From: Bacillota bacterium
GTDB taxonomy: Bacteria; Bacillota; Dethiobacteria; DTU022
DNA length: 64,000 nucleotides
NCBI GenBank assembly: GCA_029782095.1
Contig: JAKOVL010000073.1
Location: 1-64,000, forward strand
Reading direction: 5' to 3'
How positions within the stretch are numbered: position 1 is the first letter of the stretch; the number at the start of each line of letters is the position of its first letter. A program made the translations under genes and the position numbers. The notes below the pieces were generated by a model. That model had not been told where the DNA came from, made no database searches, and saw only the letters and a list, made by a program, of their open reading frames with translations. Below, in pieces: positions 6,202 through 38,818 of the stretch.

Positions 6202-6744
6202 ATGTCGCGCCTTAAGGAAAAGTATGAACATGAAATTAGGCCTGCCCTCGTGGAGCGCTTTAAGTACCGCAACATCAACCAGGCTCCCCGGATTGAAAAA
6301 GTAGTAATCAATATGGGTATAGGCGAAGGAAAAGATAATCCCAAATTGCTGGAAGCCGCGGCCAAGGATCTGGCAGCCATCACCGGGCAAAAAGCGGTGA
6401 TTACCAAGGCCCGCTTGTCCGTAGCCAGCTTCAAGGTGCGCCAGGGCATGCCCATCGGCTGCAAGGTGACTTTGCGCGGCGTCCGCATGTATGATTTTCT
6501 AGATAAGCTTTTTAATGTCGCCCTGCCCCGGGTGCGGGACTTCAGGGGGGTTTCGCCCCGCTCCTTTGACGGCCGCGGCAATTTTACCCTGGGCATTAAA
6601 GAGCAAATTATCTTTCCGGAAATAGATTACAGCAAAGTGGAAAAGATTCTCGGAATGGATATTGTTATTGTAACCACCGCTAAAACGGACGAAGAAGCCA
6701 GAGAGCTATTAACCCTGATGGGGATGCCTTTTCGGGCCGCTTAA
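6202..6744 (+). CDS. rplE: 50S ribosomal protein L5
   Basis: 180 residues, uL5, with [17 protein letters not shown], the [19 protein letters not shown] block and [19 protein letters not shown]. Binds 5S rRNA and contacts tRNA at the P site. ATG 6202 follows TAAGGAGGGTCGCGTTCGATC. Confidence 0.97.
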
Positions 6745-6787
6745 AGCCGGTCTAGCGGCATTCGCGCAAGTATGAAGGAGGAACAGG

Positions 6788-6973
6788 ATGGCCAAGAAAT
6801 CTATGATCGCTAAGGCAAAGCGTACTCCCAAGTTCAGTGTGCGCCGTTACCACCGGTGCCGCATTTGCGGTCGTCCCCGGGGGTACCTGCGCAAGTTTGG
6901 CATGTGCCGCCTCTGCTTTCGTCATCTAGCCAATGAAGGTAAAATACCTGGCGTGAAGAAGGCCAGCTGGTAG
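6788..6973 (+). CDS. rpsZ: 30S ribosomal protein S14, zinc-binding type
   Basis: 61 residues, the short zinc-containing uS14 form. Ligands are C24, C27, C40 and C43 (CRICGRP...GMCRLCFR). The length matches the C+ form of Bacillota; many of these bacteria carry a longer zinc-free paralogue for zinc starvation, which is not in this window. Confidence 0.97.
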
Positions 6974-7005
6974 ATGGTGAAAGGAAGAAAGGAGGGTTTT
7001 ACCTG

Positions 7006-7401
7006 ATGATGACTGATCCGATTGCCGATATGCTTACCCGGATCCGCAATGCCAACATGGTCCGCCACAGCACCGTGCTGGTTCCTGCTTCCAACGTAAA
7101 GCGCTCCATTGCCGAAATACTGAAGCGGGAAGGCTTTATTAAGGACTATGAGGTTATAAAGGATCAAAAACAGGGTATTATCCGTATCCATCTGAAGTAC
7201 GGACAAAATAACCAGCGTATCATTAGCGGTTTAAAGCGGATTAGCAAACCGGGATTGAGAGTATACGTCAGCAAAGATGAGCTCCCCAAGGTTCTGGGCG
7301 GCTTAGGGATCGCCATAATCTCTACCTCGCGGGGTGTAATGACCGACCGGGAGGCCAGAAAAATCGGTTGTGGCGGAGAGGTACTTTGTTATATCTGGTA
7401 G
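7006..7401 (+). CDS. rpsH: 30S ribosomal protein S8
   Basis: 131 residues, uS8, starting [17 protein letters not shown] and ending with the conserved [26 protein letters not shown]. The second ATG (7009) is an alternative start. Ribosome binding site AAAGGAGGGTTTTACCTG. S8 organises the 16S central domain. Confidence 0.97.
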
Positions 7402-24025: not shown

Positions 24026-24943
24026 CTAGGCGCCGCCGCACTCTCCGCCCCGCCCGGTCAGGATCTCCAGGGCATGGTCTAAAACCGGGGCCAGCACTTC
24101 CAGGCATTCCCGCACCGCCTTGGGGCTGCCGGGCAGGTTGACGATGAGGGTGCGGCCGCTGATGCCGGCCACGCCCCGTGAAAGCATGGCCTTGGGGGTG
24201 GCTGCTGCCGTTTCGCGGCGGATCGCTTCGGCTATACCCGGGACAAGCCGGTCCACTACCTCCAGGGTCGCCTCGGGGGTAACATCCCTGGGGGAAAGGC
24301 CTGTTCCCCCGGTAGTGAAGACAGCGTCCAGGCCCGCCGTCACCATCTTCTTCAGGGCGGCCTTCAGGGATGCACGATCATCGGGCACCACGGCGGCATC
24401 AAGCACATCGCCCCAGGGGGCCAGAAACTCTGCCACAGCGGGGCCGCTTTTATCTTCCCGTTCACCGGCGGCGCCCTTGTCGCTGGCGGTGAGCACGCCA
24501 AAGCGGTACGCAGGCCTGATCGCCAGCGTATCGCCCACTTTCAGCGGGCCGCCCCGCAGTACTTCCGCAAAGATGCCCTCCCGCGGCATAACGCAGTCGC
24601 CGGCCTGGTGGTAGATGGCACAGCGGCTGTGGCACTCTTTGCCGATCTGGGTCACGCGGAGCACCGCCTCCGGCCCGGCCTGCAGGCGCGTGCCCACGGG
24701 CAGAGAGATTAAGTCGATTCCCCTTGTGGTCAGGTTTTCCGCAAAATCGCCCGGGCCCACCTTCAGCCCTGCCGCAATCATCTTTTCTATGCTTTCCATG
24801 GCCAGCAGGCTCACCTGGCGGTGGGCGAAGCCGGCGTGGGCGTCCCCTTCCAGGCCCTGGTGCGCTACCAGCCGTCCCTGCCCGATATTTTTCTTCCGTT
24901 CGCCCTTCCTGGTGCTGGTACAAATAGCGATAATTTCTGCCAT
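24026..24943 (-). CDS. MOSC domain - MogA/MoaB fusion, molybdenum cofactor synthesis
   Basis: 305 residues. Residues 1-145 are a MOSC domain (HQGLEGDAHAG near 28-38, C104 and C108 in GKECHSRCAI), a putative sulfur or cofactor carrier. Residues 147-305 are MogA-like: FGVLTASDKGAAGEREDKSG, TTGGTGLSPRDVTPEA at 209-224 and LPGSPKAVRECLEVLAPVL, the fold that adenylylates molybdopterin before metal insertion. Last gene of the minus-strand cofactor operon, 2 nt after mobB-moaC. The N-terminal MOSC fusion is known in Clostridia. Confidence 0.9.
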   Translation of the reverse strand: MAEIIAICTSTRKGERKKNIGQGRLVAHQGLEGDAHAGFAHRQVSLLAMESIEKMIAAGLKVGPGDFAENLTTRGIDLISLPVGTRLQAGPEAVLRVTQIGKECHSRCAIYHQAGDCVMPREGIFAEVLRGGPLKVGDTLAIRPAYRFGVLTASDKGAAGEREDKSGPAVAEFLAPWGDVLDAAVVPDDRASLKAALKKMVTAGLDAVFTTGGTGLSPRDVTPEATLEVVDRLVPGIAEAIRRETAAATPKAMLSRGVAGISGRTLIVNLPGSPKAVRECLEVLAPVLDHALEILTGRGGECGGA

Positions 24944-24945
24944 GG

Positions 24946-25932
24946 TTATGGTTCCCGGCGATAGTGCCCGGAACGGCCTCCCTTCTTTTCGATCAAGCGG
25001 ATGTTCTGAATGACCATTGATTTGTCAATGGCTTTGCACATGTCATAGATAGTTAGGGCGGCCACGCTGACCCCGGTAAGCGCTTCCATCTCCACGCCGG
25101 TCCGCCCGGCCACCTTTACCCGCACCCCGATTTCGATTTTACTTTCCGGGCTTTCCACCAGGTTGAAGTCCACTTCCACGCCGGAGATCTGGAGGGGATG
25201 GGCCATGGGGATGAGGCGCCCTGTTTCCTTGACCGCCATGATCGCCGCCACCTGGGCCACTCCCAGAACGTCGCCCTTGGCCATCTTTCCTTCTTTCACC
25301 CGGGCCAGGGTTTCCGGCTGCATCACAATTTCACCCCGGGCATATGCCTCCCGCAGGGTCTCCGCCTTGCCGGAAACGTCAACCATGCGCGGCCGCCCCG
25401 TGCGGTCAAAGTGGGTCAATTCGCCGGATTGGTCGCCGCCCGGGCTGAAGAAACGTTCATGGATAAACGCAGCCAGCCCCTTTATATCCTGCAGGTGGAA
25501 CACCGGCACCTCCACTGACAGGTCGGGCACATCGGTAACCACGGCAATAACGTGTTCGGGCAGCAGCGGTTTTGGATTGACCGCCCCCCGGACCACCTCG
25601 ATTTTAGGATTGCTGCTTTTTTTGTGACCCTCCACCAGGATGAGATCCAGATCCTGCAGCAGCTGCTGCGCCGCGGCCATGCCGCCCTGTTCCGGGGCGC
25701 TGCCGATGAGAATATATTTTTCCGGGGTGGTCATCCCCGCCACTGTGGCGCCGGCCCGGGCGAAGCGCCAGGTGTCTTTGCCCGGCAGGTCCAGGTCGTA
25801 ATGATGGATTTCACCTTTAAGGGCTGCCACTTTAAGGCCGCGCTCCGCAAGTTCGGGGATTAGCTTTTCCAAAAGGGTTGTTTTTCCTGTACCCGACTGG
25901 GCTGAAACCAAATTGATAGTAACCGGTGCCAC
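24946..25932 (-). CDS. MobB-MoaC fusion, molybdenum cofactor synthesis
   Basis: 328 residues. MobB-like P-loop part (1-165) with SGTGKTTLLEKLIPELAERG from residue 13 and the metal-site-like HHYDLD; MobB helps convert MPT to the guanine dinucleotide form. From residue 171 a complete MoaC: FDRTGRPRMVDVSGK, KGDVLGVAQVAAIMA, IPMAHPLQISG and the catalytic-lysine region MCKAIDKSM; MoaC makes cyclic pyranopterin monophosphate from the MoaA product. GTG start after AAGGAGGAGATCGG. Confidence 0.93.
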   Translation of the reverse strand: MAPVTINLVSAQSGTGKTTLLEKLIPELAERGLKVAALKGEIHHYDLDLPGKDTWRFARAGATVAGMTTPEKYILIGSAPEQGGMAAAQQLLQDLDLILVEGHKKSSNPKIEVVRGAVNPKPLLPEHVIAVVTDVPDLSVEVPVFHLQDIKGLAAFIHERFFSPGGDQSGELTHFDRTGRPRMVDVSGKAETLREAYARGEIVMQPETLARVKEGKMAKGDVLGVAQVAAIMAVKETGRLIPMAHPLQISGVEVDFNLVESPESKIEIGVRVKVAGRTGVEMEALTGVSVAALTIYDMCKAIDKSMVIQNIRLIEKKGGRSGHYRREP

Positions 25933-26041
25933 CCGATCTCCTCCTTGATCATATGTACACTCCGGTAGCAGAAATTTTCAGTCCGCCGTTCCTTTTCTCT
26001 TCTGCCTTCTCTCACCCCGGCTCCCCCAGTCAGGAGGAGAA

Positions 26042-26197
26042 AGCCGGTTAACCTGCCTGTTGTCTGCATCTACTGAATTCAGTGCGGCAGCGGCAGTTCC
26101 CTCTCCCCTGGTGGGAGAGGGCTAGAGAGGGGGAAAGCAGCATGATTCCTGAAATCGTCACCCCCACCCCGGCCCTCCCCCATCAAGGGGGAGGGAG
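26042..26197. repeat. Dispersed element, long copy A
   Basis: Starts with AGCCGGTTAACCTGCCTG, includes TTGTCTGCATCTACTGAATT, GTGCGGCAGCGGCAGTTCC, the CTCTCCCCTGGTGGGAGAG hairpin and a second hairpin CCCTCCCCCATCAAGGGGG. Differs from copy B at only a handful of positions. Confidence 0.85.
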
Positions 26198-26343
26198 TTT
26201 ATCAAACCCCGGCGCAAATTTTTTCTTCTGGCTTCTGCATTCTGAATTTTAGTTTCTCTTAACCCGTCCAAATCCTGCTTCCCGGTTTTCCTGTCTTCTG
26301 CTTTCAAACCCCCTACCACCCTGTCCTGGTGCCAGGGAGGAGG

Positions 26344-26501
26344 AGCTGGTTTAACCTGCCTGTTGTCTGCATCTACTGAATTCAGTGCGGCAGCGGCAGT
26401 TCCCTCTCCCCTGGTGGGAGAGGGCTAGGGAGAGGGGGAAAGCAGTATAATTCCTGAAATCATCACCCCCACCCCGGCCCTCCCCCATCAAGGGGGAGGG
26501 A
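26344..26501. repeat. Dispersed element, long copy B
   Basis: Direct repeat of 26042-26197, same orientation, offset about 304 nt. A third, more diverged long copy lies at 37636-37780. Confidence 0.85.
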
Positions 26502-26513
26502 GATACTGGACGG

Positions 26514-27509
26514 CTAGCCGCCCGTCTTTGACATCGTCCGCATGGCTCCGGGATTGACCGGGCCGTTTTTCCCCCCCGGGCTCATGAGGTGTTCCCGCGC
26601 CTTTGAACGCAGCACATCTTGAAACAGTGCCTGCAGCTTCGCGGGATCGCCCAGGGCCGGACGGACCGGGTACTCGTCCTGCCAGTAAAGGCAGGCTTTA
26701 AGCTTTCCCTCCGCAGTCAGGCGCAGGCGATTGCAGGCATGGCAAAAATGCCGGCTGATGGGATGGATCAGCCCCACGGTGCCCTGCGCTCCGGGTATGG
26801 CGAACGTTTCTGCCGGCCCGGCTCCGCCGGGGGAGGGAACCGGGGTTAAGGGCATCCCGGCCCGGGCCGCCGCTTCGTGCACATACTCCAGGGGCAGGTA
26901 GTGCCGGTGGTACTCCCGGTCGTGATCGCCGATGGGCATATATTCGATAAAGCGAACATGCAGCGGCCGATCCATCGTCAGCTCCAGGAAGGCGGGCACC
27001 TCGTCATGATTTAGTCCCTTCATTAAAACCGTGTTAATTTTAACCGGATCCAGCCCTTCCTGAAGGGCTGCTTCAATTCCTTCTAGAACATGCTTCAGTT
27101 CGCCGATGCGGGTAATGCGCTTATATCTTTCCCGATCCAGGGAATCCAGGCTGATATTGACCCGCATCAGCCCCGCCTGCTTTAACCGGTGTGCTTCGCG
27201 GGCCAGCAATACTCCGTTGGTGGTCAGGGCCAGGTCTTCGATGCCCTTAACCCCGGCAATTTTCTCCACCAGGGCAACCAGGTTTTTGCGGACCAGCGGT
27301 TCGCCGCCGGTCAGGCGGATCTTGCGGATGCCTGCCGCTGCTCCTGCTTCCACCACTTGCAGGATCTCTTCGTAGCGCAGGATCTCCCAGTGCGAGAGCT
27401 GCTTGATCCCCGCCTCGCCCATGCAGTAAATGCAGCGCAGGTTGCAGCGGTCTGTTACCGATATGCGCAGGTAATCGTGTTTTCTGCCGTAAGAGTCGAT
27501 CAGTGCCAC
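26514..27509 (-). CDS. moaA: GTP 3',8-cyclase MoaA
   Basis: 331 residues. Radical SAM enzyme that starts molybdopterin synthesis from GTP. N-terminal cluster C22-x3-C26-x2-C29 (RCNLRCIYCM), KIRLTGGEPLVR, and a second 4Fe-4S cluster in the C-terminal domain with CxxC-x13-C (CHACNRLRL...KACLYW). The C-terminus ends in Gly-Gly, needed for activity in the family. GTG start after CTAGGAGGGATAGCCT. Confidence 0.96.
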   Translation of the reverse strand: MALIDSYGRKHDYLRISVTDRCNLRCIYCMGEAGIKQLSHWEILRYEEILQVVEAGAAAGIRKIRLTGGEPLVRKNLVALVEKIAGVKGIEDLALTTNGVLLAREAHRLKQAGLMRVNISLDSLDRERYKRITRIGELKHVLEGIEAALQEGLDPVKINTVLMKGLNHDEVPAFLELTMDRPLHVRFIEYMPIGDHDREYHRHYLPLEYVHEAAARAGMPLTPVPSPGGAGPAETFAIPGAQGTVGLIHPISRHFCHACNRLRLTAEGKLKACLYWQDEYPVRPALGDPAKLQALFQDVLRSKAREHLMSPGGKNGPVNPGAMRTMSKTGG

Positions 27510-27582: not shown

Positions 27583-29484
27583 TTAAAGTTCGATGAGCCG
27601 GCCTGCTTCGCGCATGCTGTAACCGCCCAGCGCCTCCACCTGCTCCTGAAATGTTTTATCGGTGATAATCTCCAGCAGGGCCTGTCCCGCCGGGGAGTGG
27701 TAGAAGTCTTTGCGCATCAATAAATCGTAGCGTTCTTCCGCCACCGGGATGAAATCCAGGCCAAAGGCCCGGGCAGCAGAAAGAATGCCCAGGCCGGCCC
27801 GGGCGGTGCCTGCGGCCACGGCGGCGGCCACGTTCAGGTGAGTATGCTCTTCCCGTTCGTAGCCGTATAGGTCTGACGGCCGCAAACCGGCCCCTTTAAG
27901 CAGGTGATCCAGCAGCAGGCGCGTCCCTGCACCCCGCTGGCGATTGATAAAGCTGATCTTTTGCCGGACCAGGCTTTCCACGTTCTCCACCCCGTCCGGG
28001 TTGCCCGGAGGCACAATCCAGCCCTGCATGCGATAGGTCAGGTTGACCAGGCAGAGCTCTTTGCTGGCAGCCAGGCGGCAGATATAGGGCACATTGTAAT
28101 CGCCTGTTTCCGGGTCAAACAGGTGCACCCCGGCCAGGTGGGCCTGGCCCCGATCCACGGCAAAAATGCCCCCCATGCTGCCCAGGTGGGCCGAAGAAAG
28201 GGCCAGCCGGGGATCTTTACTTTTTAGGGCTGTGGCCAAGAGGTCGATAATCAAATCGTGGCTGCCGGCGGCAAGGAGATTGTGCTTAAGTTCCGCCGCG
28301 GGGCGAAAAAGCTCCAGGGTCACCGTTTCACCCTGCTCAAACCCGAGGGAGTGCTCCGGGATGATGAGCAGGCCGTCAGCCCGGACCAGCGACATGGTTA
28401 TCCCGGCCCCGCGGGCCAGGGGGTTGGCCACGAAGTGGCCGTTCACATAGCCTATGGCCATGCGCACATGTTCTTCCACGCCCATTTCCGAGACGACGCG
28501 TCGTCCCAGGACCGCCTTCAGCTGCTCCCGCTGCGGCACCGGCTGCCCCCGGTAGCGGTAGAGCAGGGGGCGCACAAACCACTCCAGGCTCATATAGGCT
28601 GAAACGGGGTAGCCGGGCAGACCCACCACCGGTTTTCCCTGGACCAGCCCCAGGATGGTCGGTTTGCCAGGGCGGGTGGCCACGCCGTGCAGCAGCACCT
28701 CGCCTAAATTTTCGATGACGCGGCTGGTGTAGTCTTCCCGCCCGGCGGAAGAGCCGGCGCTGATGATGACGAGGTCGCCTTCGGCCAGGGCTTGCTCTAC
28801 CGCTGCAGTAATTTTCTCCAGGTCGTCGCGCACGATGGGGTAAATAGTGGCGGCAGCGCCCCACTCCTGCAGGTACGCGGCGATGACAGTGCTGTTAAAA
28901 TCAGGAATATCTCCTTTGTTGCGCCGGGCTTCCGGCGGGACTATCTCAGAACCGGTAGGAATTATCACTGCCTTGGGCCGGGCCAGGACTTCCAGCTCCA
29001 GCACTCCTCCTGCCAGCAAGGCTCCCAGGTCTTGCGGGCGCAGGGTCTGGCCGGCGGTCAGGATCAACTCACCTGCCACCACGTCTTCTCCCACCGGACG
29101 GACATACTGCCAGGGGGTGGCCGGGGCTAAAATTTCGATGGCGCCGTCTTCCAGCGGTTGAACATCTTCCACCTTAATTACCGCGTCAAATCCGGGCGGC
29201 AGCGGGTCTCCTGTATCCACCGCTTCGTAACCGTCTCCTGGCGCCAGCCGCAGCGGTCTCTGGTCGGAGGCGCTGAAAGTGGTTTCCGCACGCACGGCGT
29301 AGCCGTCCATGGCTGCGGCATGGTAGCCTGGCATGGAGAGGCGGGCAAAAACGGGCGCTGCCGTGACCCGTCCCAGGGCTTCCGCCACCGGCACGGTTTC
29401 CGTGCGGCGCGGTAGGGCTGCCCTTTCCAGGAAACGCTGCTGCGCTTCTTCCCGGGGGGTATTGTCCAGATAAACTTTACGCAT
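27583..29484 (-). CDS. MoeA fused to a periplasmic-binding-protein-like domain
   Basis: 633 residues. Residues 1 to about 405 are MoeA (molybdopterin molybdotransferase): PGYHAAAMDGYAVRAETT, ISAGSSAGREDYTSRV and KPVVGLPGYPVSAYMS. The last 225 residues are a PBP-like domain (SSAHLGSMGGIFAVDRGQAH, NRQRGAGTRLLLDHLLKG), as found fused to MoeA or LysR-type regulators in anaerobes and presumed to bind oxyanion or cofactor. Second MoeA in the operon; the pair may separate molybdate and tungstate insertion (inference). Confidence 0.92.
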   Translation of the reverse strand: MRKVYLDNTPREEAQQRFLERAALPRRTETVPVAEALGRVTAAPVFARLSMPGYHAAAMDGYAVRAETTFSASDQRPLRLAPGDGYEAVDTGDPLPPGFDAVIKVEDVQPLEDGAIEILAPATPWQYVRPVGEDVVAGELILTAGQTLRPQDLGALLAGGVLELEVLARPKAVIIPTGSEIVPPEARRNKGDIPDFNSTVIAAYLQEWGAAATIYPIVRDDLEKITAAVEQALAEGDLVIISAGSSAGREDYTSRVIENLGEVLLHGVATRPGKPTILGLVQGKPVVGLPGYPVSAYMSLEWFVRPLLYRYRGQPVPQREQLKAVLGRRVVSEMGVEEHVRMAIGYVNGHFVANPLARGAGITMSLVRADGLLIIPEHSLGFEQGETVTLELFRPAAELKHNLLAAGSHDLIIDLLATALKSKDPRLALSSAHLGSMGGIFAVDRGQAHLAGVHLFDPETGDYNVPYICRLAASKELCLVNLTYRMQGWIVPPGNPDGVENVESLVRQKISFINRQRGAGTRLLLDHLLKGAGLRPSDLYGYEREEHTHLNVAAAVAAGTARAGLGILSAARAFGLDFIPVAEERYDLLMRKDFYHSPAGQALLEIITDKTFQEQVEALGGYSMREAGRLIEL

Positions 29485-29673: not shown

Positions 29674-30909
29674 CTACTGCCACAGGTACACTTCCACCGT
29701 TTCCCCTGCGGTCAGCCCCTCTTTGCCAGCGGGAACAACGATAATACCGTCGGCTTCTGCCAGGGTGCGCAGCATGCCCGAACGGCCGAACACGGGCGAG
29801 GCTGTAAAGCTGTCACCCTCCGGTTTAAGCTGCACCCGCACGTAGTCTGTGCGACCGGAGCGGGAGGGGAGATTGCGGGTTAGCGTCGCCCGCACCGCCG
29901 GCTTGAAAGGATGCGCCTTCCGCCCTGCCAGGCGATCAATAATGGCCCTGCCGAAGAGAGAGAAGATGACCAGGGCTGAGACCGGGTGCCCCGGAAGCCC
30001 CAGAACTGGCTTGCCGTCACAGTCAGCCAGCAGGGTCGGTTTTCCCGGCTGGATGGAGACTCCTTCTACCAGCAGCCCCGGCTGACCCAGTTCCTGCATG
30101 GTCCGGGCGGTAAAATCGCGGCTGCCCACGGAGCTGCCCCCGGAGAAGACCAGGAAATCGACCTGTTTCAGCAGGGCTCGGCTCTTTTCCAGGAATTCAG
30201 CAAAAGAATCGCCGAGAATGCCGCCGTTAACGACCCGGGCGCCGGCCTGGCGGCACAGGTAGGCCAGGGCCACGGAGTTGCTGTCGCGAATGCGCCCCGG
30301 CGGCAGCTTGCCGGGGGGGGTGTGATAATCCACCAGCTCGTCTCCGGTGGAAAGCAGGCCCGCCACCGGCCGCCGGAAAGCCGGCACTGTGGTGATGCCC
30401 AGGGAAGCGAGGATCCCCAGCTCCGGGGCGCGCAGCAGGCGCCCCTTCTCCAGCGCCGGCTCATCCCGGCGCAGATCCTCCCCGCGGTGAATTACATTTT
30501 CGCCGGGAGCGACCTGGCGGTAGCAGTTGACTATGGAGCCGGAGACTTCAGTATCCTCCACCATGACCACGGCGTCGGCTCCCTCAGGCAGCGCGGCCCC
30601 GGTATGCACAAGAAAGCACTGGCCCGGCTGCAGGACAGCGGGAGGAGGATGCCCCATCAATACCTCGCCGGCGCATTCCAGCACCGCTGGAAAGCCTTCC
30701 CCGGCGCCGAAAGTCTCCCGGGCGGAAACGGCGTAGCCGTCCACCGTGGAGCGGTTGAACCCGGGCACATCTTCCCCCGGAGTTATCGTTTCGGCCAGGG
30801 TGCGCCCTCCGGCCTCCTCCAGGGGCACTGCTTCCACCTCCAGGGGATGGAAATGCTTTTCAATTAATGACAGCACTGTCTCGGGTTCCGTGACCCGCAT
30901 CAGTTTCAT
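29674..30909 (-). CDS. moeA: Molybdopterin molybdotransferase MoeA
   Basis: 411 residues. Inserts molybdate (or tungstate) into adenylylated molybdopterin. Motifs: PGFNRSTVDGYAVSARETFG, AVVMVEDTEV, FSGGSSVGSRDFT, KPVLGLPGHPVSALVIF and the domain IV end. First gene after the cofactor riboswitch; ribosome binding site TTGAGGTGAACAGAAG lies just past the switch terminator. Confidence 0.95.
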   Translation of the reverse strand: MKLMRVTEPETVLSLIEKHFHPLEVEAVPLEEAGGRTLAETITPGEDVPGFNRSTVDGYAVSARETFGAGEGFPAVLECAGEVLMGHPPPAVLQPGQCFLVHTGAALPEGADAVVMVEDTEVSGSIVNCYRQVAPGENVIHRGEDLRRDEPALEKGRLLRAPELGILASLGITTVPAFRRPVAGLLSTGDELVDYHTPPGKLPPGRIRDSNSVALAYLCRQAGARVVNGGILGDSFAEFLEKSRALLKQVDFLVFSGGSSVGSRDFTARTMQELGQPGLLVEGVSIQPGKPTLLADCDGKPVLGLPGHPVSALVIFSLFGRAIIDRLAGRKAHPFKPAVRATLTRNLPSRSGRTDYVRVQLKPEGDSFTASPVFGRSGMLRTLAEADGIIVVPAGKEGLTAGETVEVYLWQ

Positions 30910-30927
30910 CTTCTGTTCACCTCAAAT

Positions 30928-30960
30928 AAAAAACCGTATCTCCTGCTATGGAAAGTACGG
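30928..30960 (-). terminator. Intrinsic terminator of the cofactor riboswitch
   Basis: On the minus strand CCGTACTTTCC pairs with GGAGATACGG (one mismatch, one G-U), loop ATAGCA, followed directly by TTTTTT. It lies between the aptamer and the moeA ribosome binding site, the layout of a transcription-attenuating switch. Confidence 0.75.
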
Positions 30961-31066
30961 CTTGGCCAGGTTCTCCTTTCCAAATACGGGAGGCGGAGGG
31001 ATTTCTCCCTCAACCCAGACCTTCCACCGTAGCCGAAAAGGCGGTAGGTGCAAAGGTTCGGAGCAA
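30961..31066 (-). ncRNA. Molybdenum/tungsten cofactor riboswitch (Moco RNA family)
   Basis: Minus-strand leader of the moeA operon. The conserved 3' core CGCCTCCCGTATTTGGAAAG closely matches the core of the E. coli moaA Moco RNA as I recall it, preceded by a GAGGGA-GAAA-TCCCTC hairpin (P5-like) and, upstream, TTTGCACC. The middle section between TTTGCACC and the P5-like hairpin is about 35 nt, roughly 20 nt shorter than in E. coli, so the P3 stem seems reduced or absent, the feature proposed for tungsten-cofactor (Tuco) variants. Gene context (five cofactor genes downstream) supports the call. Confidence 0.85.
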
Positions 31067-31088
31067 ATATTTTGTTTTTCCTGTTAAT

Positions 31089-31116
31089 ATTATATCATTT
31101 TGCCCCGGCCCTGCAA
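31089..31116 (-). promoter_or_regulatory. Promoter of the molybdenum cofactor operon
   Basis: Reading the minus strand: TTGCAG (31116-31111), 16-nt spacer, TATAAT (31094-31089). The start of transcription would be about 15-20 nt before the aptamer. Confidence 0.65.
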
Positions 31117-31273: not shown

Positions 31274-31798
31274 TCAGTAGGGATAAAGAATTAAACCCAG
31301 CAGCGCTCCCAGGCCAATCAGATAGAGGGGGTTCACTCTGCGCACCAGGCTCAACAGCAGCAGCCCGGCGAAAATAAGGATTGTGGCCAGATCGACCAGG
31401 GCCTCCTGTCCTAAGGAAAAGGCAGCCGTCAGGATCAGGGCGATCAGGGCGGGCCGCAGGCCCTTAAAAAAGCGCTCCGACCGCGGATTCTGGATAACGC
31501 CCATTAAAAAGCGGCCCAGCAAGAGCAGGATGACCAGGGAAGGGGTAATTACGCCCAGGGTGGCCAGCAGCGATCCCGGCACTCCGGCCAGGCGGTAGCC
31601 AATAAAGGTGGCCGCATTCACGGCCACCGGTCCGGGTGTCATTTCAGCCACGGCCACAATATCGAGGAATTCAGCTGCGGTGAGCCAGCCGCTGCGGTTA
31701 ATCATCTCCGCCTCCATCAGCGGGATCATGGCGTAGCCGCCGCCGATGGTAAAAAGTCCGATCTTAGTAAAAGTCCAGTAAAGAGAGAGGAGCAGCAC
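31274..31798 (-). CDS. Chromate transporter, short-chain (half 2)
   Basis: 174 residues, about six membrane helices. CHR family signature FTIGGGYAMIPLMEAE and MTPGPVAVNAATFIGYR. Short-chain CHR proteins work as pairs of opposite topology; the partner is the gene just upstream (3 nt away). Family members export chromate or related oxyanions; actual substrate unknown. Confidence 0.88.
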   Translation of the reverse strand: MLLLSLYWTFTKIGLFTIGGGYAMIPLMEAEMINRSGWLTAAEFLDIVAVAEMTPGPVAVNAATFIGYRLAGVPGSLLATLGVITPSLVILLLLGRFLMGVIQNPRSERFFKGLRPALIALILTAAFSLGQEALVDLATILIFAGLLLLSLVRRVNPLYLIGLGALLGLILYPY

Positions 31799-31801
31799 CC
31801 T

Positions 31802-32389
31802 TTACACCTTCCACTTCCAGAAAATGACCAGACCGATTAAACCTCCGCCCAGCATGATGGCGATGGGATGGATCTCGAACAGAAGGCTCGCTGCTAGCAG
31901 GACTGCGGTCAGGATGGCGCTGCCCCAGCCGCGCAGCAGCTCCCGGGCCAGGTTCAAGGCGGCGGCGGTAATTAGGGCCACCACCGCCGGGCGCAGCCCG
32001 TAGAAGACGGCCTGCACGTAGATGTTATGGCGGAAATAGGGGAATAAAAAGGAAGCCACGGCCAGGATGACCAGGATGGGCGGGGTAATTACCCCCAGCG
32101 CCGCGATGAGACCGCCGCTAAAACCCCGCAGGCGCTGTCCGATGATGATGGCATTGTTCAAGGCCAGCGGTCCGGGTATGCTCTGGGTAACAATGAGGGA
32201 ATCGAGAAAAACTGACTGGTCCAGCCATTTTTTTCGGTGGACCACTTCCCTTTGAATCACTGGCAGCATGGCGTAGCCGCCCCCGATTGTAAAAGCGCCT
32301 ACCTTCAAAAAAACCAGGAAAATGGTCAGCAGGGAAACCTGCTGTACCTGCGCTGTCTCCTCAGGCTGCAAGGGCTTACCTCTTTTCAA
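31802..32389 (-). CDS. Chromate transporter, short-chain (half 1)
   Basis: 195 residues. FTIGGGYAMLPVIQREVV and SIPGPLALNNAIIIGQRLRG are the CHR motifs; several hydrophobic helices follow. Pairs with the next gene to form one transporter. Lies 6 nt downstream of a MarR regulator, so it is probably cotranscribed with it. Confidence 0.88.
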   Translation of the reverse strand: MKRGKPLQPEETAQVQQVSLLTIFLVFLKVGAFTIGGGYAMLPVIQREVVHRKKWLDQSVFLDSLIVTQSIPGPLALNNAIIIGQRLRGFSGGLIAALGVITPPILVILAVASFLFPYFRHNIYVQAVFYGLRPAVVALITAAALNLARELLRGWGSAILTAVLLAASLLFEIHPIAIMLGGGLIGLVIFWKWKV

Positions 32390-32395
32390 GCTTTT

Positions 32396-32923
32396 TTATT
32401 CTGATTTGAATTTGCTTGGCCCTGCTTCTAGGCCGGTTCCGTTGTTGTTTTTCTGATCGTACGGATACAGCTTCTCCAGCTCGGCGAAAGCGCGCATCAC
32501 CGCCTGCAGAGAAACGATCAGGCTTTCCCGTTCGTCGGCGGTTAAAATGCGGGCCAGGTTATTGAAACGAAAATGGCGTCTTTCAAAGACAAGCCGGGCC
32601 AGTTGACGCCCGTATGAAGTCAGGTTAACCCTGACCACCCGGCGATCTTTTTCATCGCCCCGCCGCCGCACCAGGTTTAAATTCACCAGGCGGTTAACCA
32701 GCCGTGTGGCTGCGCTTTCAGCCAGGTACATCTCCGCGCTCAGCTCGCCCATAGTGAGGTTGTCATTAAAGTAGAGGACCAGCAGCGCATTAATCTGGCT
32801 GGGGGTGATGCCCAGCCCCGTCAATTCCCGGTTTTCTTCTGCGCTTAAGTAATGCATCAACTTGGGAAAAATGGCCTGTATGGCCGCAGTAAACTTCTCC
32901 GTATCTCTATATTCGCTGCTCAT
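32396..32923 (-). CDS. MarR family transcriptional regulator
   Basis: 175 residues. Winged helix: TPSQINALLVLYFNDNLTMG, AESAATRLVNRLVNLNLVRR and RRGDEKDRRVVRVNLT (wing). ATG at 32923 follows AAAGGAGCAGACATCT; an in-frame ATG at 32959 lies almost on the likely transcription start (ATTATAAG just upstream) and is less likely. Probably controls itself and the chromate transporter pair. Confidence 0.85.
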   Translation of the reverse strand: MSSEYRDTEKFTAAIQAIFPKLMHYLSAEENRELTGLGITPSQINALLVLYFNDNLTMGELSAEMYLAESAATRLVNRLVNLNLVRRRGDEKDRRVVRVNLTSYGRQLARLVFERRHFRFNNLARILTADERESLIVSLQAVMRAFAELEKLYPYDQKNNNGTGLEAGPSKFKSE

Positions 32924-33081
32924 AGATGTCTGCTCCTTTACCGGGTCCGTTTGCTTCATGCCTTACTTATAATCTTTTCCACAAAGAAGGGCGATATCCT
33001 TTAGAAAACTGTTGAAAAAGGGAGTCTGCGGCAAAAGGACGATCTCCTGACTGTGGGAAGTTTAAATGAGAATTAGTATGA

Positions 33082-37635: not shown

Positions 37636-37780
37636 CCCCCACCCTGCCCTCCCCCACGAGGGGGGAGGGGGCCGGTCAACGGCCTGTTTTCTCTATTTAC
37701 GGGGTTCAGCGCGGCAGCGGCAATTCCCTCTCCCCTGGCGGGAGTGGGTTAGGGAGAGGGGGACAAGCCGGTTCAACTGA
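37636..37780. repeat. Dispersed element, long diverged copy C
   Basis: Includes CCCTGCCCTCCCCCACGAGG, a middle section GGTTCAGCGCGGCAGCGGCA related to copies A and B, and the CTCTCCCCTGGCGGGAG hairpin. The order of the two hairpins is changed relative to copies A/B. Confidence 0.75.
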
Positions 37781-37807: not shown

Positions 37808-38818
37808 ATGCATAAAGCACTTTACTACGAAAAAGAAAAGGAAGGCGCGGTGCGCTGCCTGCTATGCCCGCAGCGCTGCCGCATCGCCGAAGGTGAAGCC
37901 GGACTCTGCGGCGCCCGCAGAGTGGTGGAGGGGGAGCTCTATACAGTCAATTATGGGCTCTGTGCCGCCGCCCATTGGGATCCGGTGGAAAAGAAGCCCC
38001 TTTACCACTTCCATCCCGGCCGGCCCATCCTCTCCCTGGGCACTTTGGGCTGCAACCTCTCATGCCGCTTCTGCCAGAACTGGTCCCTGGCCCGGGGCAA
38101 TCCCGAAAGAGAAAAGGGCTGCCTCTGTTTGATCCCGGAGCAGGTTTTGCAGATGCTGCGGCGCGAAGGCGGGCCGGAAGAAGTCCTGGGCGTGGCCTAC
38201 ACTTACAACGAACCCACGGTCTGGTATGAATTCATTCTGGACACGGCCCGCCTGCTGCACAGCCACGGCTATCGCAATGTCATGGTCACCAACGGCTTTA
38301 TCAGCCGGGAGGCCCTGTTGCAGCTGCTTCCCTTTATGGATGCTTTCAATATTGATGTCAAGGCCTTTAGCGACCACTTCTACCGCCGCTACTGCGGGGG
38401 GAGGCGCCGCCCTGTTTTAAGGACAGTGGAGCTGGCCGCATCCCATAGCCATGTGGAGGTAACCTGCCTGCTTATCCCGACACTGAACGACGATCCGGCG
38501 GAAATAGAAGCTTTAAGCGACTGGCTGGCGGGGATCAACCCCAATATCCCCCTGCATTTCTCCCGCTACTTTCCCCAGTATGAACTGGATTTGCCGCCCA
38601 CACCGCTGAAAACACTTCAGCAGGCGCAGGAGCTGGCCCGAAGAAAGATGAATTTTGTTTACCTGGGCAATGTGGACCTGCCCGGCTCTTCCGACACCTT
38701 TTGCCCTTCCTGCGGTGCTCTTCTGATCAGGCGCAGCGGATACCGGATCGCATTGGCTGGATTGGAAGGGAGCCGCTGCCAGGGCTGCGGCTCTGGCATT
38801 CCCATCGTCCTTTCCTGA
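37808..38818 (+). CDS. amrS: AmmeMemoRadiSam system radical SAM enzyme
   Basis: 336 residues. Radical SAM cluster C82-x3-C86-x2-C89 (GCNLSCRFCQNW). N-terminal cysteines C17, C20, C24 and C34 (CLLCPQRCRI...GLCGARR) typical of the AmrS/PflA-like group. YTYNEPTVWYEF, MVTNGFI and FNIDVKAF are family motifs. The C-terminus adds a zinc-ribbon-like pair, FCPSCGALL and RCQGCGSG. ATG 37808; the upstream sequence GTTAAATTTT has no clear binding site. Partner of the LigB-AMMECR1 gene upstream. Confidence 0.92.
   Translation: MHKALYYEKEKEGAVRCLLCPQRCRIAEGEAGLCGARRVVEGELYTVNYGLCAAAHWDPVEKKPLYHFHPGRPILSLGTLGCNLSCRFCQNWSLARGNPEREKGCLCLIPEQVLQMLRREGGPEEVLGVAYTYNEPTVWYEFILDTARLLHSHGYRNVMVTNGFISREALLQLLPFMDAFNIDVKAFSDHFYRRYCGGRRRPVLRTVELAASHSHVEVTCLLIPTLNDDPAEIEALSDWLAGINPNIPLHFSRYFPQYELDLPPTPLKTLQQAQELARRKMNFVYLGNVDLPGSSDTFCPSCGALLIRRSGYRIALAGLEGSRCQGCGSGIPIVLS

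Follow-up and report, generated by a model that had tools for sequence, protein, structure and literature searches.

A P3-less Moco-family riboswitch with an intrinsic terminator ahead of a molybdopterin-cofactor operon of Dethiobacteria, and the case for a tungsten-cofactor ligand

The moeA leader and the genes behind it

The window, by which we mean the whole stretch of 64,000 nucleotides analysed from a metagenome-assembled genome (MAG) of the Dethiobacteria, carries five Mo/W cofactor genes downstream of a riboswitch, on one strand (minus) and in order: moeA (29674-30909; 411 amino acids, matching the MoeA families), a second moeA gene fused to a PBP-like domain (27583-29484; 633 amino acids; NF011068 with 749 bits, PF03453, PF00994, PF03454, PF12727), moaA (26514-27509; 331 amino acids; TIGR02666 with 377 bits), a mobB-moaC fusion (24946-25932; 328 amino acids; TIGR00176, TIGR00581), and a MOSC-mogA/moaB fusion (24026-24943; 305 amino acids; NF011069, TIGR00177). 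The initial annotation of this DNA had described promoter, aptamer, terminator and all five genes as an uninterrupted array. This description fails at a non-coding gap of 581 bp (25933-26513, minus strand) that separates moaA from mobB-moaC. The gap contains two copies (26033-26197 and 26336-26502) of a REP-like repeat of about 165 bp that are 92-96% identical and carry the palindrome CCCTCCCCCTTGATGGGGGAGGG; a degenerate third palindrome of this repeat is present at 37647-37669. A low-threshold Rfam scan of the gap yielded only chance microRNA-type matches, which lie on the palindromic repeats. Upstream, a chromate-transporter pair (two PF02417 proteins) and a MarR regulator (31274-32959, minus strand) adjoin the riboswitch promoter on the same strand; chromate is an oxyanion, as are tungstate and molybdate. 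Near the start of the window, an S10-Clostridia ribosomal protein leader (RF03136; 42.8 bits) lies at 227-302 on the plus strand.

Read along the minus strand, the moeA leader consists of an extended −10 promoter, an aptamer, an intrinsic terminator and the moeA start codon at position 30909. The covariance model of the Moco riboswitch family (RF01055) matches the minus strand at 31075-30957 over its full length (model positions 1-135; 65.1 bits, E 2.1e-13), well above the gathering cut-off of 36, and the conserved core quoted in the initial annotation, CGCCTCCCGTATTTGGAAAG, is present exactly. Both results bear out the assignment of this leader to the Moco family that had been made there from the letters alone, and we regard membership in RF01055 as practically certain. 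P2, with its internal bulge at the tetraloop-receptor position and its terminal hairpin (31019-31057; RF01055 alignment and pair counts of helices 2 and 3), P4 with a GNRA (GAAA) tetraloop cap (30991-31016; 100% of the cells of helix 4 paired), P5 and the conserved junction core can all be recognized. The conserved 3' core (30973-30989) comprises P5, CCGUAUUUGG, and the P1-proximal strand, GGAAAGGAG, and is invariant or nearly so in 160 copies and in an alignment of 11 orthologous leaders. The hairpin that had been called P5-like exists under another name: in the published nomenclature, the GAAA-capped hairpin is P4, and P5 is the short CCGUAUUUGG. In the P2 bulge, the window copy reads CCUACC../UACGG versus CCUAAG../UAUGG in most copies, and its close relatives are similarly changed.

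The P3 hairpin is missing from the window aptamer. With 119 nt, it is about 20 nt shorter than the 138-nt E. coli moaA aptamer, as had been noticed, and the deleted RF01055 model positions coincide exactly with P3. A two-nucleotide P2-P4 junction (31017-31018) takes its place; P3 is equally absent at the loci L014-L020 and from the four other copies of the MAG.

The promoter predicted ahead of the aptamer was located by direct reading as the extended −10 element TGATATAAT (31089-31097, minus strand), with a predicted transcription start near 31082-31080. The sequence TGnTATAAT directly precedes the aptamer in each of the eight leaders that we read. A generic sigma-70 promoter scan left the window element unscored because its −35 region is poor. 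The built-in terminator, likewise predicted, extends from 30960 to 30928 and consists of the arms CCGUACUUUCC and GGAGAUACGG, a loop and a U6 tract (10 bp; −11.3 kcal/mol). It is missing from the output of a generic terminator scan; direct reading and covariation support it. The Shine-Dalgarno sequence of moeA, GAGGTG (30918-30923), follows 8 nt ahead of the ATG.

This arrangement is conserved. The seven closest named relatives of MoeA (63-70% identity), several of them from metagenomes labelled Syntrophomonadaceae, all have a P3-less RF01055 match shortly upstream of moeA (7/7), and so do three further genomes of the same family (G377, G181, G339). In the remaining genomes of this family, all listed RF01055 copies measure 116-126 nt, and every aptamer that was read directly is without P3. 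Both the P3-less aptamer and the terminator are kept, with covariation, in the moeA leaders of ten relatives. In the resulting 11-leader alignment, 95% of the helix cells are paired and 13 pairs are changed on both sides, a result matched by none of 500 shuffles; when the helix partners are shifted by one to three columns, pairing falls to 41-58%. Since six of the ten pairs of the terminator helix (helix 6) are changed on both sides, we conclude that this hairpin is under selection. The window leader is also more stable than shuffled sequence (z −2.7). The outer pairs of P1 are non-standard in the window copy and would fit a chance or degenerate, non-functional match, a reading that the 65-bit score against a 36-bit cut-off, the presence of five copies in one MAG, and the conservation of promoter and terminator among the relatives reduce to a negligible probability; the full-length RF01055 match, the P3-less copies of the relatives and the covariation in the 11 leaders refute it.

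A probable terminator-based OFF switch in the P3-less subclass

The reference for this family is the E. coli moaA leader (RF01055; PMC2408646), with which the window RNA shares the core, P1, P2, P4 with its GAAA loop, P5, a position ahead of molybdopterin-biosynthesis genes and the proposed role as a cofactor-sensing OFF switch. The E. coli RNA differs in having P3 (PMC2408646); it heads moaABCDE and acts by Shine-Dalgarno sequestration, whereas the window RNA heads moeA and possesses a transcription terminator. Removal of P3 by itself disrupted the E. coli RNA (PMC2408646). The original description of the family covered 176 Moco RNAs, of which 58 had no P3; most of these came from organisms that have genes for the tungsten cofactor (Tuco), and Tuco was proposed as their ligand (Regulski 2008, PMC2408646). 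Members of this P3-less 'Tuco' subclass (PMC2408646; e.g. Syntrophomonas wolfei) resemble the window RNA in the absence of P3, the intrinsic terminators of some of them, their location upstream of MPT genes and the occurrence of several copies per genome. In S. wolfei, P3-less copies precede putative sulphite-oxidase genes, and two copies of our MAG (L001/L003) likewise precede SUOX-fold proteins. The window element is no new kind of RNA element and does not differ in kind from the published subclass; it adds a new, terminator-bearing member to the P3-less Moco riboswitches already known, for which the tungsten cofactor is the putative ligand. What goes beyond the published subclass are the importer statistics at the level of loci, the negative outcome at the level of genomes and the ECF/pterin-binding operons described below.

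The best overall explanation, to which we assign a rough probability of 0.65, is that of a P3-less Moco-family riboswitch acting as transcriptional OFF switch of the molybdopterin-cofactor operon, with Tuco as its most likely ligand. During transcription, the nascent leader RNA would fold into the aptamer. When the cofactor is plentiful, the ligand would keep the conserved core, CCUCCCGUAUUUGGAAAGGAG, within the aptamer; the terminator hairpin could then form freely, and RNA polymerase would halt ahead of moeA. When the cofactor is scarce, the core would be free to engage both arms of the terminator (GGAAAG:CUUUCC, CCGUAU:AUACGG), and transcription would proceed. Tuco appears as the most likely ligand because it is P3-less RNAs, among them another copy of the MAG, that precede tungstate importers. 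The OFF polarity and the antiterminator pairing, like the identity of the ligand, are what we infer for the window riboswitch.

Several properties of the leader bear on this scheme. Aptamer and terminator can coexist in a single structure (−44.2 kcal/mol, consensus pairs only), as is expected for a ligand-bound OFF state. The candidate antiterminator target CUUUCC lies in the 5' arm of the terminator (30950-30955) and is complementary to GGAAAG of the core (30981-30976); the 3' arm contains AUACGG, the complement of the core sequence CCGUAU. A fold that uses the antiterminator pairs reaches −53.0 versus −57.9 kcal/mol for the minimum free energy (MFE) structure. The TTTC(C) motif is retained in seven of eight clade leaders, and the remainder of the stem is variable. 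Among 99 predicted terminators from both RNA classes, GGAAAG:CUUUCC complementarity showed no significant excess over shuffled arms; it is therefore not general, and the antiterminator is proposed at the level of the clade.

Control might instead be exerted mainly on translation, or by an ON switch, with the terminator in a minor role. The E. coli example is translationally controlled (PMC2408646), and in the unbound MFE structure of the window leader CGCCUC is paired with the Shine-Dalgarno region of moeA. Against this stand the terminator and its U-tract, preserved by covariation in the 11 leaders and compatible with the bound aptamer, and the position of the moeA Shine-Dalgarno sequence, which comes after the terminator and is not part of P1. 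We consider such a mode of control very unlikely and terminator-based OFF control of the window operon highly probable.

Tungsten or molybdenum: the genomic context of P3-less and P3-containing RNAs

The question whether P3-less Moco RNAs sense the tungsten cofactor dates from 2008; the instability of this cofactor has precluded an answer by binding assays. Here we examined the genomic context. A search with RF01055 across 399 genomes of the phylum gave matches in 219 of them. From these, the 150 best-scoring copies, a sample that is not random, were surveyed together with up to 4 kb of downstream DNA; with three copies of our own MAG, this made 153 copies. Genes were classified with phmmer against a few references, and selected cases were checked with NCBIfam and Pfam. 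Copy lengths fall into two modes, and in the alignment the P3 hairpin is either present or absent, which divides the sample into 77 P3-less and 76 P3-containing RNAs; one long copy (L250) is nonetheless P3-less and has a long P2. In 160 copies, the two classes differ clearly, P3 itself apart, only at the junction beside P3.

Among the 153 copies, tungstate importer genes (tupA or tupB; wtpA for L161 and L221) stand downstream of 21 P3-less RNAs and one P3-containing RNA, and modA stands downstream of 4 and 24, respectively, so that tungstate and molybdate importers segregate by RNA type (Fisher p 7e-9). When collapsed to genera, a procedure that falls short of a full phylogenetic correction, the counts are 18:1 versus 4:7 (p 0.001). 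AOR genes are found directly behind three P3-less and no P3-containing riboswitches. In genomes for which both RNA types are listed, such as G068 and G059, the P3-less RNAs go with tup or FDH genes, and the P3-containing RNAs with moeA or mod. There are exceptions to this division: tupA lies behind a P3-containing RNA in G018 (L267), and clear modA operons lie behind P3-less RNAs in G027, G169 and G105. In G117 and G224, genes of the xanthine-dehydrogenase (XDH) family follow P3-less RNAs; enzymes of this family are normally Mo enzymes. As observations apart, tandem P3-less riboswitches precede tupA in a related genome (G339:C12:38239-38364 and 38650-38774; L333, L342), and in G058 (L152) the AOR-like genes are fragmented and a TupB match has in-frame TGA codons, which may reflect decay, frameshifts or recoding.

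Features that do not DISCRIMINATE are the genome-level AOR, ModA and TupB inventories and the window operon type. AOR genes occur in 34 of 36 genomes with P3-less RNAs only and in 26 of 33 with P3-containing RNAs only (p 0.08), and the distribution of their counts is alike; the genome-wide presence of ModA and of TupB shows no significant difference between the same two groups. The gene order moeA-moeA2(-moaA) of the window is found behind 14 P3-containing and 5 P3-less copies. Two MoeA proteins, read in the initial annotation as a possible sign of tungstoenzymes, are consequently uninformative on the metal. The tungsten variant itself stays plausible, given that P3 is missing from all five copies of the MAG, that tupABC stands behind one of them, and that the importers segregate across the 153 copies.

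The five RF01055 matches of the source MAG are all P3-less (5/5) and head the window operon, tupABC with a MOT1-type transporter, two genes for SUOX-fold surface proteins, and an ABC ATPase gene with a DUF364 gene. The MAG contains up to ten AFOR_C genes, two XDH-type genes and four DMSOR-type genes, of which two have an in-frame TGA that may encode selenocysteine. The tungstate importer and AOR-family genes that had been named as a check on the tungsten variant are thus there, and the presence of AOR genes does not discriminate; tungsten genes of the MAG are weakly informative because such genes are nearly universal in both groups of genomes. Like the DMSOR-type and XDH-type genes, a ModABC operon counts against a tungsten ligand; it is located on contig C127, where the stretch read contains no riboswitch and which deviates in GC content and tetranucleotides. 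Contamination of the MAG amounts to 6.3%. Over 3.1 kb with the riboswitch, the ABC ATPase and DUF364, contig C74 (L097) is 99.97% identical to contig C103 (L335) of a MAG of another genus (G128), a case of cross-binning; the riboswitch of C74 may therefore be foreign to our MAG. One AOR also scores identically in the two MAGs.

These data have to be weighed against a reading in which the same OFF switch operates with a metal-blind P3-less aptamer (accepting Moco, Tuco or metal-free MPT), P3 is a stabilising element, and the tup/mod segregation reflects inherited pairings of RNA and operon. The cores of both RNA types are near-identical apart from P3 and a short junction before P4, and the genome inventories that fail to separate the types, the moeA operons found with both, and the modA and XDH-type genes behind some P3-less RNAs would all suit it. 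What speaks against it is the strength of the importer segregation, which survives the collapse to genera, the partition within G068 and G059, and the report that the P3-containing E. coli RNA is unresponsive to Tuco (PMC2408646). We judge the metal-blind aptamer to be rather unlikely. Since importers segregate and neither the genome inventories nor the window operon do, importer context favours Tuco, which we consider somewhat more likely than not to be the preferred ligand of the P3-less window riboswitch. The locus-level segregation over 153 copies provides independent support for the proposal of 2008, and the missing genome-level signal shows which kind of evidence counts.

Riboswitch-linked ECF operons with SUOX-fold proteins

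Behind the tup riboswitch of the MAG (contig C144; L094:6089-15439) lie genes for a calcineurin-type phosphoesterase with a weak SUOX-domain match, a fusion of an ECF S component (PF09819) with an Oxidored_molyb (SUOX) domain, an ECF ATPase and a T component. This gene run, an ECF operon starting with a P3-less riboswitch and tupABC, leads on to a second P3-less riboswitch before the SUOX-fold surface proteins. Of 78 riboswitch genomes, 20 have relatives of the S component. Among the 19 besides our MAG, 8 have an RF01055 copy on the stretch of about 10-18 kb that was read around the ECF S gene, where a rough uniform model predicts about 2% per genome (p ~7e-9). In six genomes (G063, G244, G298, G093, G092, G302), the riboswitch is followed in one orientation by one or more SUOX-fold secreted proteins, usually a phosphoesterase (PF01663 or PF00149), the ECF S component, one or two ATPases and the T component. 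MobB is encoded in the operons of G298, G093, G092 and G302, and MoeA in that of G093. The ECF S gene of G180 lies close behind a riboswitch, and in G241 a P3-containing riboswitch heads an ECF S gene and a MobA-like gene. In all, nine families have ECF S genes in operons with a Moco riboswitch at their head, near it or alongside, and the loci with PF09819 S components, PruR-like proteins, phosphoesterases and MobB, MobA or MoeA are, besides that on C144, L311, L312, L313, L316, L317, L318 (where a small SUOX-fold protein is encoded at 6731-7252), L319 and L321. In G320, a SUOX-fold protein and a phosphoesterase are likewise encoded behind P3-containing riboswitches, so this association is not confined to the P3-less class. 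Large surface proteins of G185 and G059, considered as further SUOX-fold candidates, proved to be fibronectin type III proteins and were ruled out.

The predicted structure of a small secreted protein from G092 (mean pLDDT 83) best matches PruR (7kom, E 3.9e-07), and then enzymes of the sulfite-oxidase family. PruR is a periplasmic pterin-binding protein of SUOX fold (7kom, 7kos; PMC13259868), the fold predicted for the small secreted proteins of the ECF operons; it lacks the metal-ligating Cys (PMC13259868), as do most SUOX-fold domains of these operons. Whereas PruR is a component of c-di-GMP signalling in Proteobacteria, the SUOX-fold proteins described here are encoded in riboswitch-controlled ECF-transporter operons. 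In the model of our own S-component fusion, of moderate confidence (mean pLDDT 70.5), the membrane part resembles the ECF S component 5edl (Foldseek E 4.6e-08, TMt 0.78), in agreement with its PF09819 match (3.7e-21), and the tail resembles the SUOX fold. Unlike 5edl, the riboswitch-linked S component is fused to a SUOX-fold domain in four genomes and is linked to Moco riboswitches and to MobB, MobA or MoeA.

The predicted folds, the riboswitch and the MobA, MobB or MoeA neighbours suggest an importer for a pterin or for the cofactor. It is conceivable, though on balance doubtful, that an undescribed system for salvaging the Mo/W pterin cofactor, or fragments of it, is under the control of P3-less Moco/Tuco riboswitches. 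Secreted PruR-like, mostly Cys-less SUOX-fold proteins would bind the pterin, secreted nucleotide pyrophosphatases or phosphoesterases would strip off nucleotide or phosphate, and an importer of the ECF type would take up the product, its S component carrying in some genomes a fused domain of that same pterin-binding fold; MobB, MobA or MoeA could then rebuild the cofactor inside the cell. Arguing against a cofactor importer, substrates of the thiamine type are also compatible with the S-component fold of PF09819. The pocket of PruR is, moreover, reportedly too small for Moco (PMC13259868). In the open-access literature, we found nothing relevant on an ECF importer of molybdopterin or tungstate or on operons of this kind, and according to a 2026 review the route of pterins across membranes is unknown (PMC13259868). 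The operons that join a riboswitch, an ECF transporter, pterin-binding-type proteins and a phosphoesterase represent a concrete candidate for a pterin-cofactor importer.

Two further features were noted in the MAG. Just upstream of the tup riboswitch on contig C144 (L094:15545-16936, minus strand), a gene encodes a putative regulator that combines a LysR-type HTH with a TupA-like binding-protein domain. On contig C189 (L324), CRISPR repeats (RF01315; positions 1-227) lie near the second PF09819-type S component of the MAG.
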